NCBI RefSeq assembly: GCF_006517175.1
Contig: NZ_CP041186.1
Span: forward strand, 6,413,074 to 6,477,073
Reading direction: 5' to 3'
DNA length: 64,000 nt
Origin: Persicimonas caeni
GTDB lineage: Bacteria; Myxococcota_A; Bradymonadia; Bradymonadales; Bradymonadaceae
How positions within the stretch are numbered: position 1 is the stretch's first letter; each line of letters opens with the position of its first letter. The notes below the pieces were generated by a model. That model had not been told where the DNA came from. It searched no databases and saw only the letters and a list, made by a program, of their open reading frames with translations. The translations under genes were made by a program, and so were the position numbers. Shown here piece by piece: positions 28,880 through 57,034 of the stretch.

Positions 28880-29153
28880 CGCGTTCGGTGCGGGTGCTTC
28901 CAGCGCGCGTTCGGTGCGGGTGCTTCCAGCGCTCGTTCGGTGCGGGTGCTTCCAGCGCTCGTTCGGTGCGGGTGCTTCCAGCGCGCGTTCGGTGCGGGTG
29001 CTTCCAGCGCGCGTTCGGTGCGGGTGCTTCCAGCGCGCGTTCGGTGCGGGTGCTTCCAGCGCTCGTTCGGTGCGGGTGCTTCCAGCGCTCGTTCGGTGCG
29101 GGGGCTTCCAGCGCTCGTTCGGTGCGGGTGCTTCCAGCGCTCGCTCGGTGCGA
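28880..29153. repeat. Eleven-unit 26-bp tandem array
   Basis: Units begin at 28884 and every 26 bases to 29144, based on TTCGGTGCGGGTGCTTCCAGCGC with a C/T variable CG. All units are nearly identical except the last. The array starts right after the methyltransferase stop codon. All reading frames are open on both strands, which creates spurious ORFs. Each unit contains GCTTCCAGCGC, also found twice at 55979-56071. Confidence 0.9.
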
Positions 29154-29271
29154 GGCCATCTTGGCCTCGTCGACGAGGGCAAGATGCCCCCGCACCGAAG
29201 GAGGGTCGACGAGGGCAAGATGCCCCCGCACCGAAGGAGGGTCGACGAGGGCAAGATGCCCCCGCACCGAT
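29151..29271. repeat. Hairpin plus three 36-bp repeats in inverted register
   Basis: CGAGGCCA-TCT-TGGCCTCG (29151-29169) is an 8-bp hairpin that caps the 26-bp array. Three 36-bp units then start at 29169, 29205 and 29241 (GTCGACGAGGGCAAGATGCC...CGCACCGAAGGAGG). Their CCCGCACCGAA is the reverse complement of the TTCGGTGCGGG head of the 26-bp units, and GGGCAAGATGCCC-like cores are themselves hairpins. Confidence 0.88.
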
Positions 29272-51113: not shown

Positions 51114-51542
51114 CTAGGCTGCCTCCTCAAATCCCTCCTCCATGATTTCCTCGAACACGCTCCAGGTGATGCCTCGTCGATGATGCTCCTTTTGCTTTTC
51201 TACGTAGCGAACGGCGTCTTGGTAATCGAGCGCGCTCAACGTGAAGGCGCCGAACCCGACCTGCCACTTGAAGTTGCGGCGACGACGGAAGTTGCGGCGA
51301 ATCGCACCGGAAGACTCGGACTTGGTTCGATCGATGAAATGGGACGGAGCAACTTTGGGCTTGATTGCCGCGATGAGATGCACGTGGTCTTCGACGCCGC
51401 CAAGGGTGATGATCTTTCCGTCATTTCGAGCTGCCGAACTGATGAGCACCGGGTAGAGGAATTCCTCGATCTCGGCGTCGATCCATTTGGCGCGACCTTT
51501 CGTGGCGAAGACAATATGAAAGCGAAAGCGGGTGAATGGCAT
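51114..51542 (-). CDS. REP-associated tyrosine transposase (IS200/Y1 HUH family)
   Basis: A 142-residue Y1 transposase. It begins MPFTRFRFHIVFATKGR, has the HUH metal pair in GGVEDHVHLIAAI (about 48-60) and the catalytic tyrosine in YVEKQKEHH (about 113-121). Such enzymes cleave single-stranded hairpins; RAYT members act on REP elements. GGAG six bases before the ATG supports the start. The frame is intact and all key residues are present, so it may be active. Flanking palindromes share its likely specificity. Confidence 0.87.
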   Translation of the reverse strand: MPFTRFRFHIVFATKGRAKWIDAEIEEFLYPVLISSAARNDGKIITLGGVEDHVHLIAAIKPKVAPSHFIDRTKSESSGAIRRNFRRRRNFKWQVGFGAFTLSALDYQDAVRYVEKQKEHHRRGITWSVFEEIMEEGFEEAA

Positions 51543-51734
51543 ATCTGGCTCCATAGTGGCTAGGGTGTGCGCAAACCTCTCACTATGGTTTTCGGCAGAA
51601 TGGGCCGAATCGTTGCGTGGTTTTTGGGTGGATCGCGGCGAGGAGGTCGTGGGGGCGGGATTTTTCTTGGTTGGGGCTATTCGGGGACGTTCGAAGGGAA
51701 ATGAGCGTTTTGGGTTGTTGTGGCTCGTTTTCCC

Positions 51735-55410: not shown

Positions 55411-55850
55411 GGACTGCGGCGGAACGGTTTCCCGATCCGCAAAACAAAGCCTTCGTGGCGAGCGTATCTTCGAGGAGATGTGGGACCGTACCTCTTTGGC
55501 GCGCTCGGCGGAGGCCGAGCCGGCAGTTTGGTCCTTGTGGCGAAACGGTCGGATTTGCCCGGTGCGGGTTCGTTGATGCGTCGATTTGGAAGTGTCGGCG
55601 TGGCGTGAAGATGGACCTGTGCCATGAGGAGTGCCGCAGCGGCGTCGTTGGAGGTCGTGGCGTCGGGGTGGGCATGTGCGTAGCGCATGACCTATCCGAG
55701 GTGGCTTGAAAACGGGGCGGGCTTTGCCCGTTGACTGTTCACAATCACAAGCAAATCCGCAGCGCCCATGCCGGCGAATTTCGTCGGCAGACGCACCGGT
55801 ATGTCGTGATGAGCAGCCTGTGCGGGCGCTTAGCTGCGCAGGCTGATTCA

Positions 55851-55968
55851 CCGGCGGGGTAGAACCCGCCGGGGTCTGGGGGGCGGGGTGAAGAGTCTGT
55901 CGCGATAGACCGCCGTCACGGGGTCTGGGGGGCGGGGTGAAGAGTCTGTCGCGATAGACCGCCGTCAA
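55851..55968. repeat. GC hairpin and two 49-bp direct repeats
   Basis: CCGGCGGG-N6-CCCGCCGG (55851-55872) leads into two nearly identical units starting at 55871 and 55920 (GGGGTCTGGGGGGCGGGGTG, then AAGAGTCTGTCGCGATAGAC and CGCCGTCA). TCTGTCGCGATAGA in each is a small dyad. Confidence 0.85.
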
Positions 55969-55970
55969 TT

Positions 55971-56092
55971 GGAGGCAGCGCTTCCAGCGCTGGTTGCAGG
56001 AGAGTGCGGCCTTGCTCCCAGGGCAAGATGCCCTGCCTCCTAAGGCTTATCCGACAGCCTAGAGGCAGCGCTTCCAGCGCTGGGAGCAAGGC
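55971..56092. repeat. Block of hairpin words shared with the 28.9-kb array
   Basis: GAGGCAGCGCTTCCAGCGCTG occurs near 55972 and 56062 (AGCGCT-TCC-AGCGCT hairpin), and GGGCAAGATGCCC-type at 56021-56033. GCCTTGCTCCCAG (about 56009) and CTGGGAGCAAGGC (about 56080) are inverted copies. AAGGCTTATCCG also appears twice. Both GCTTCCAGCGC and GCAAGATGCCC are the cores of the two arrays at 28880-29271. Confidence 0.8.
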
Positions 56093-56149: not shown

Positions 56150-56668
56150 TCAGGTTCCCCGCGCCGGCTGCAGGGGGCGGCCTGACGGTGGGACGCGTCG
56201 CAGTCGGTCGTTGAGGGTGTTGACGATGTTGGCGAAGTGGCTCAGCGGGATGTGGGTGAAGGTGATGGGCCCGCGGGTGGTCTCCAGGCGGAGGTTGCCG
56301 CCCACGTGGGGCTCGCTCTCGAGGTCGGTGATGTGATCGTAGGGGATGGTCTGCGCTTCGGCGCCCGTGCGGCCCATGGTCGCGGCGACGTAGACGAGCC
56401 GGTCGTCGAGGAGCACCAGGATGGCCTTTTTGCTGGCGTGGCGTGCGCGGGTGGCCGCCAAGATAGAGTCGCCGTCGCGCACGTGGAGGCGCAGCAGCTC
56501 GAAGGGCGGCGTGGCGTCGCCGCCGGGTTCGACGCCCAACTCGGCGAGCCGGGTCTCGAGGCGGTCGAGGCGGATGCTGTCGGTGCGCGAGTTGCGTTGG
56601 CGTACCAGCCAGAAGGCGATGGCCGCGGCGATGAAGAGCGCGAGGAATGCGATGAGATACCATTCCAT
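56150..56668 (-). CDS. Membrane-anchored protein with PH-like domain
   Basis: A 172-residue protein: one N-terminal transmembrane helix (about 4-22, WYLIAFLALFIAAAIAFWLV), a short Arg-rich helix with RLDRLETRLAEL (about 32-45), then a compact beta-rich domain (about 55-160) with KKAILVLLDDRLVYVAATMG and IPYDHITDLESEPHVGGNLRLET, similar to bacterial PH/YokE-like domains. It probably faces the cytoplasm or membrane surface, and its role is unknown. A 21-bp repeat array fills the region upstream of its start. Confidence 0.7.
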   Translation of the reverse strand: MEWYLIAFLALFIAAAIAFWLVRQRNSRTDSIRLDRLETRLAELGVEPGGDATPPFELLRLHVRDGDSILAATRARHASKKAILVLLDDRLVYVAATMGRTGAEAQTIPYDHITDLESEPHVGGNLRLETTRGPITFTHIPLSHFANIVNTLNDRLRRVPPSGRPLQPARGT

Positions 56669-56761
56669 GACTGATCCTGTGGAGCCTTGCTAAAAACCTG
56701 CGTCGGTCGAAACGTCTCCCGGGCTCAAACCTATGTGCTCGCGCGGTATTAACAAGACCGG

Positions 56762-57034
56762 TCGCCGAGCTACAAATACAGCTCGCCGGGCTACAGAGAA
56801 GTGTCGCCGGGCTACAGAGAAGTGTCGCCGGGCTACAGAGAAGTGTCGCCGGGCTACAGAGAAGTGTCGCCGGGCTACAGAGAAGTGTCGCCGGGCTACA
56901 GAGAAGTGTCGTCGGGCTACAGAGAAGTGTCGCCGGGCTACAGAGAAGTGTCGCCGGGCTACAGAGAAGTGTCGCCGGGCTACAGAGAAGTGTCGCCGGG
57001 CTACAGAGAAGTGTCGCCGGGCCACAAACAGGTG
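56762..57034. repeat. Thirteen-unit 21-bp tandem array
   Basis: Exactly 13 units of 21 bases (273 bp), based on TCGCCGGGCTACAGAGAAGTG. The first and last units are diverged; the internal units are almost identical, one having TCGTCGGGC. It lies between two minus-strand genes, 94 bases upstream of the PH-like gene start and 7 bases after the stop of the next gene. All six frames stay open, producing false seven-residue repeat proteins. Confidence 0.92.

Follow-up and report, generated by a model that had tools for sequence, protein, structure and literature searches.

Hairpins in common, heads apart: two REP/REPIN-type repeat families and their adjacent RAYT genes in Persicimonas caeni

Why should two hairpin-forming words, which serve as the tails of a repeat array near 28.9 kb of the 64,000-nucleotide stretch of DNA analysed here (the window), be found together again some 27 kb away behind a different head sequence? 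The array (28885-29270) has the head TCGGTGCG and consists of ten 26-bp plus-strand units with GTGCTTCCAGCGC, followed by minus-strand units with GGGCAAGATGCCC. At the second site (55971-56092) both words are present as the original prediction had stated, with GCTTCCAGCGC located at 55980 and 56070 and GCAAGATGCCC at 56023, and the site as a whole comprises three copies of one repeat: a plus-strand copy with a TCC loop, a minus-strand copy with a TCT loop and a plus-strand copy with a degenerate head. The first is a left arm (55971-55992, plus strand) in which GGAGG is followed by the 7-bp stem CAGCGCT/AGCGCTG around the loop TCC, and the second, 26 bp further on, is a right arm (56019-56040, minus strand) in which GGAGG is followed by CAGGGCA/TGCCCTG around TCT, so that the two make up a 70-bp inverted pair (REPIN-like). 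The third copy (56061-56082, plus strand) joins the degenerate head AGAGGCAG to the hairpin of the left arm. All of this lies in the gap before a minus-strand gene, the coding sequence of which ends at 56150. Both words had been described as self-complementary hairpins, which they are; the limits given for the hairpins were too narrow, in that the last three bases of GGAGGCAG, CAG, pair with CTG and form part of the stem.

A chance origin of the words, and of the families to which they belong, was rejected, as the counts are far above those of shuffled or reversed-pattern controls. With at most one mismatch, the window holds 20 matches to GCTTCCAGCGC, where shuffles lead one to expect 3.8, and 6 matches to GCAAGATGCCC, where 1.5 are expected. 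In the genome, a single contig of 8,047,206 bases (8.05 Mb) in which the window lies at C1:6413074-6477073, the comparison with chance that had been proposed at the outset gives 465 exact copies of GCAAGATGCCC against 2 of its reversed pattern, and 118 exact copies of GCTTCCAGCGC against 31. Among the first 30 listed of the 118 GCTTCCAGCGC places, GCAAGATGCCC is found within 100 bp in 11 and either head within 100 bp in 21, while 9 have neither. A replichore strand bias was also considered, the first 100 listed GCAAGATGCCC places all being on the plus strand, but known minus-strand copies in that range are missing among the matches listed; the order of the list is therefore not plain position order, and the idea was dropped.

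With head and hairpin taken together, two families can be defined. The F2 family, GGAGGCAG-N4-TC[CT]-N4-CTG, has 160 copies genome-wide and none when read backwards, and the F1 family, TCGGTGCG-N3-GC-N-TC[CT]-N-GC-N-C, has 431 copies, with a control of 0. It had been supposed that the head differs from locus to locus; since both families are genome-wide, this is replaced by two heads that recur throughout. When any loop is allowed in F2 (GGAGGCAG-N11-CTG), 207 places are found (control 7), 160 of them with a TCC or TCT loop, and the loop starts with TC nearly always. The loops are not strictly TCY, as the array flanking the F2-associated RAYT gene described below (RAYT-B) has TCG loops. In a 464-kb sample TCC/TCT loops are no commoner than other loops, so that the TC-loop rule is confined to these repeats. 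Of 87 distinct flanks upstream of F2, all but one (86) have T at position -2, and the head is accordingly written TNGGAGG.

In F2 the arm stems vary (CGC, ACC, GGC, GCC), as does the closing pair (T-A, A-T), and pairing is kept: across 31 distinct F2-type sequences, 24 from this genome and 7 from a genome of the sister genus (G008), 95.9% of cells are paired, with 44 double changes against 16.4 after shuffling and a covariation score of 0.467 against 0.120, a level reached in 0 of 500 shuffles. Sliding of the stem partners abolishes this signal. The F1 stem follows GCG-N-G-N-GC-W, and its positions 4 and 6 are often mismatched (130 elements). Inverted F2 pairs span 47-70 bp in 22 of the 23 listed, and 78 bp in one; many of them combine a TTCCA-type with an ATCTT-type hairpin, and pairs of two TTCYA hairpins are also present. 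The two words, which had been taken for unrelated hairpins, are both loop-TC hairpins, and one inverted pair uses them as its two arms. Three elements (L002, L021 and L176) are hybrids whose arms have different heads, one of them GGAGGCAG and the other of TCGGTGCG type. The idea of a modular repeat system is supported by these hybrids, by hairpins that are common while the heads differ and by the genes that the two head families flank.

As for placement, 129 of 141 repeat copies are intergenic (F1 99 of 102, F2 30 of 39) in a sample that is 12% non-coding, a count that depends on our own gene model, built on codon hexamers, by which 88% of the sample is coding, and on many loci chosen for holding repeats, with array copies that are not independent. 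F2 copies within open frames occur at L008, L011, L089, L122 and L136, and those in L011, L122 and L008 apparently leave their host frames unbroken. It could be argued that selection has kept the hairpins as RNA structures at gene ends, in the role of terminators or of stabilisers of mRNA, and 57 of the 99 intergenic F1 copies do lie in gaps between convergent genes, which make up 13% of background gap length, although here too array copies are not independent. The hairpins are, however, not followed by a T run, and a role in RNA leaves both the heads and the adjacency to RAYT genes unexplained; we consider this explanation highly improbable.

That adjacency was found by looking for a RAYT, as the original prediction had advised. 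A search for Y1 transposases returned 26 genes including RAYT-A, and a query with the RAYT-A protein added RAYT-B and RAYT-C, giving 28. RAYT-A (C1:5453046-5453792; L146:747-1493) is flanked by F1, with five plus-strand heads upstream and one minus-strand head that starts 27 bp past the stop. RAYT-B (C1:3489459-3490109; L157:560-1210) has an open frame of 216 codons and lies between two F2 blocks, with 14 plus-strand and 7 minus-strand F2 heads within 1.8 kb on both sides of the gene. Among the 28 Y1-type genes found, these are the only two beside F1 or F2 repeats complete with hairpins, each with its own family on both sides, and neither family with its hairpin was seen beside the other Y1 loci examined (20 loci and five more). 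The suggested link to a RAYT is supported by this adjacency.

Other Y1 genes were rejected as partners. One of them, within the window (51114-51554, minus strand), has a Y---Q--HH motif and no such hairpin within 1.5 kb; it sits among repeated sequence of its own. A family of about 20 copies encoding Y1 proteins of ~330 aa was set aside because none of the members examined is flanked by repeats. These multi-copy proteins (L037-L050) are 66-99% alike and without REPs, have the motifs NHFH, FWE and YIVCNP in the three checked, and resemble subclass 2.3 as it appears in the accessible text of PMC6006769. RAYT-C (L183:1330-1962) lies amid several copies of another kind of repeat, a longer one (GAGGCGCGCAGC..., with GGGCGTCCCCGCCC).

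Might the repeats owe their spread to tandem duplication and recombination, together with template switching at hairpins, so that the RAYT genes merely lie in repeat-rich gaps? Long tandem arrays with locus-specific linkers, the head hybrids and, at the site itself, an inverted partial duplication in which the hairpin was swapped are all of the kind that such processes would leave. Against this stand the exclusive association of RAYT-A and RAYT-B, each with its own family on both sides, and the recurrence of the same arrangement in the sister genus and, in general form, at 13 of 15 related loci, which make this explanation quite unlikely. F1 and F2 share with REP/REPIN repeats high copy number, a mostly intergenic location, a hairpin palindrome, inverted pairs and a RAYT flanked by its own REPs, and the 5' tetranucleotide GT(A/G)G is absent, the heads being TNGGAGG and TCGGT; by these sequence traits they are REP/REPIN-type elements. 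Taken as a whole, the probable explanation is that the words are arms of such repeats, and that F2 and F1 are each most likely copied by their own RAYT.

RAYT-A and RAYT-B are 62% identical, and RAYT-C is a 39-40% relative. All three proteins match the NCBIfam model for REP-associated tyrosine transposases (NF047646) with E-values of 3.9e-18 to 8e-20, at bit scores of 65.7, 71.2 and 69.1 that are all under the curated cut-off of 80. RAYT-B scores 20.6 against Pfam Y1_Tnp, under its cut-off of 23, and a Pfam search of RAYT-C gave no match. The best solved structure, and the sole convincing solved relative, is TnpArep 4er8 (E 3.9e-4). The HUH region reads HAH in RAYT-A and RAYT-B, and this Ala is outside the middle residues listed as permitted (L, V, I, F, Y, M) in the accessible text of PMC6006769. 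Tyr186 aligns with the Tyr motif of 4er8, and the motif in RAYT-A is YIWHNA, without the P of Y---NP. In E. coli, the residues that contact GTAG are given as W94, Q95, E/D100, H/R101 and R104 (PMC6006769, accessible text); the corresponding guide-contact positions in RAYT-A are W165, Q166, D171, R172 and R175, and RAYT-B has the identical set. RAYT-A also has a C-terminal tail of ~32 residues, which is absent from RAYT-B, and the frame of the sister genus likewise stops before the tail.

A check in related species had also been called for. A RAYT search of 377 genomes of the phylum (E<=1e-25) matched 7 genomes, this one included, and yielded seven foreign loci, to which a scan of named genomes added eight from Planctomycetota, Thermoflexia, Verrucomicrobia, Kiritimatiellales and Acidobacteria. 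A TCC or TCT loop is present in 78 of 106 hairpins with a stem of at least 7, and in 13 of these 15 loci, where resampled sequence leads one to expect 0.38 in total; no TC[C/T]-loop hairpin was seen at the other two, L202 and L205. The heads differ from those described here, being GTAG or GGTAG at L194, L196, L199, L200, L203 and L204, and elsewhere CTGGGAG(T/C), CCGGGAGC, CTGGGGAA, CTGGGTAC or CTGGGACC, with CGGAG in the sister genus. Across the 13 loci no part varies less than the loop, a result consistent with the earlier suggestion that function may reside in the hairpins.

The sister genus has a 48%-identical RAYT surrounded by GGAGCCAG repeats, in which ATCTT/TTCCA is again the loop pair. 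When the pattern is loosened, 86 GGAG-type matches are found across the whole of its genome, against 24 in the control, and many of them are pairs of GGTC-ATCTT-GACC and ACC-TTCCA-GGT. In a RAYT tree built without L207, RAYT-A, RAYT-B and the sister-genus RAYT form one clade with support of 100/99, and RAYT-B is grouped with the sister-genus RAYT at 94/85, which is short of firm. On this grouping, GGAG is likelier to be the old head and TCGGT the newer one.

A mechanism can be proposed in which a REP consists of a short unpaired head and a hairpin with a three-base loop starting with TC, often in inverted pairs with two different hairpins. Folded, single-stranded F2 (TNGGAGG+CAG...) would most likely be copied by RAYT-B, and folded, single-stranded F1 (TCGGT+GCG...) by RAYT-A, both putative Y1 HUH nucleases. 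The enzyme would dock by way of loop and stem, and the head would act as a guide choosing the cut site, by analogy with the group 3 REPtrons Sm and Mb, where loop bases are critical and where, for Mb in vitro, the head sets the cut site (PMC8266576, accessible text). The sequences show the families, the pairing and covariation, the adjacency to RAYT genes, the paralogy and the MITE target duplications, while cleavage, copying, the guide role and the order of events we infer. A duplication, in this lineage or in its family, probably gave rise to RAYT-A and RAYT-B, after which the head would have changed in the RAYT-A system with the hairpins unchanged. That the two families have hairpins in common under different heads, each around its own RAYT, suggests that lead sequence and hairpin can evolve separately. 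A fuller version, to which we give somewhat less than an even chance, is that after duplication RAYT-A gained both the TCGGT guide head and its ~32-residue tail while both enzymes kept loop-TC hairpins, so that head and hairpin would be separable modules, the loop a docking code held clade-wide across several phyla and the head a replaceable cut-site address.

Much of this resembles known REP/BIME/REPIN and RAYT systems (REPtrons), such as the Y/Z REPs of E. coli, the REPINs of Pseudomonas and the REPs of Stenotrophomonas, in which the repeats are likewise of high copy and intergenic, an unpaired motif of constant sequence precedes each short hairpin, hairpins of two types are combined in inverted pairs and the RAYT is flanked by its own repeats. 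They differ in having GT(A/G)G heads in place of TNGGAGG and TCGGT, and in the present genome one set of hairpins is common to two sister RAYTs that have different heads. As far as the accessible text of Nunvar 2013 (PMC3686654) goes, RAYT-associated REPs, two RAYT/REP pairs or REP classes per genome and REP class switches were already known, and in its 'orthoswitch' and duplicated orthogroup IV RAYTs the REPs on the flanks of a duplicated RAYT have diverged; there, however, GT(A/G)G is kept constant and the palindrome stem changes, whereas here the hairpin words are kept and the head changes. The group 3 REPtrons, in the available part of PMC8266576, also have a perfect short stem and a head that tolerates change and, for Mb in vitro, can move the cut to another site, but their loop motifs are GCT and TTTA as opposed to TC[C/T], and their head changes were made in vitro, as opposed to a natural pair. 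Since atypical motifs other than GT(A/G)G are described for subclass 2.6 and class 3 in the part of PMC6006769 available, loss of GTAG is by itself nothing new, and since many REP loops fit TY or CMA (PMC3733652, in part), the TC-loop rule may be partly known. What differs here from the known cases is that the head has switched and the hairpin has stayed, with heads outside GT(A/G)G. A literature search, with subscription papers outside its reach, found no account of REPs in Bradymonadales. One genome holds nature's reverse experiment, two 62%-identical RAYTs having near-identical hairpins and different heads, and with such native pairs one can test directly whether the head is a guide or a recognition tag. 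The loop-TC rule is, in addition, a simple means of finding REPs that GTAG-based searches would miss in Myxococcota, Planctomycetota, Chloroflexota, Verrucomicrobiota and Acidobacteriota.

How the F2 pair came to lie at 55971-56092 involves a further element. A degenerate copy of a 120-bp MITE occupies 55942-56061, with 108 of 120 bases equal to the consensus of nine copies; it has no coding capacity and its terminal inverted repeats (TIRs) are decayed, that of the left end from GAGGCTGTCGCAAAAG to GAGTCTGTCGCGATAG. About a dozen copies of the element share the GAGGCTGTCGCAAAAG TIRs. In 8 of 10 other copies (11 rows less L044, a chance pattern match), target duplications of 5-7 bp are present, six of them exact and two with one mismatch. 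By eye, each of the eight targets is the loop of a palindrome, for example GGCGGG-TTCAC-CCCGCC or GGGC-GAGAC-GCCC; a scripted test found pairing in 5 of 11 rows as against 6% of random sites, with the first three pairs required in a fixed 5-bp register and the rest needing one mismatch or another register. Three of the targets (L148, L151 and L172) are F1-type repeats; REP-like loops have thus received insertions of a MITE that bears an F2 pair. Insertion inside palindromic repeats is also described for IS1397, ISKpn1 and ISRm22 (PMC1525189, accessible text), but here the inserting element is a 120-bp MITE that itself bears a REP pair, and the loop is the target duplication.

From these copies it might be supposed that a DDE-type transposase dispersed F2 as a whole by way of the MITE, in which the REP pair would be a passenger. 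The shared TIRs, the duplications in hairpin loops and the membership of the window copy in the 120-bp class are all in keeping with this, but TIRs are missing from most of the 109 F2 copies examined, single units and pairs of 47-55 bp exist, and no longer TIR pair was seen as a possible autonomous parent. As an account of the family it is unlikely; for the last move of the window copy, MITE transposition may well be right. Under copying by RAYT-B, which we prefer for the family, the F2 pair at this site would have come, or later travelled, inside a MITE that inserts into hairpin loops and that has since decayed and been partly duplicated. The window copy has no target site duplication, its right flank being replaced by a partial REP. 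This flank was lost to an inverted partial duplication (56009-56092), the arms of which (56009-56039 and 56062-56092) are 84% complementary, with one hairpin word swapped for the other.

Further repeats lie close by. A perfect 49-bp tandem duplication (window 55870-55967) ends in the decayed MITE terminus, and a 21-bp tandem array of at least 9 copies with the core GAAGTGTCGCCG lies beside the site at 56719-57000. A third hairpin repeat, around CAGGCTGATTCACCGGCGGGGT, is present at 55840-55885 of the window and at L013, L015, L152 and L173, and is also a MITE target.
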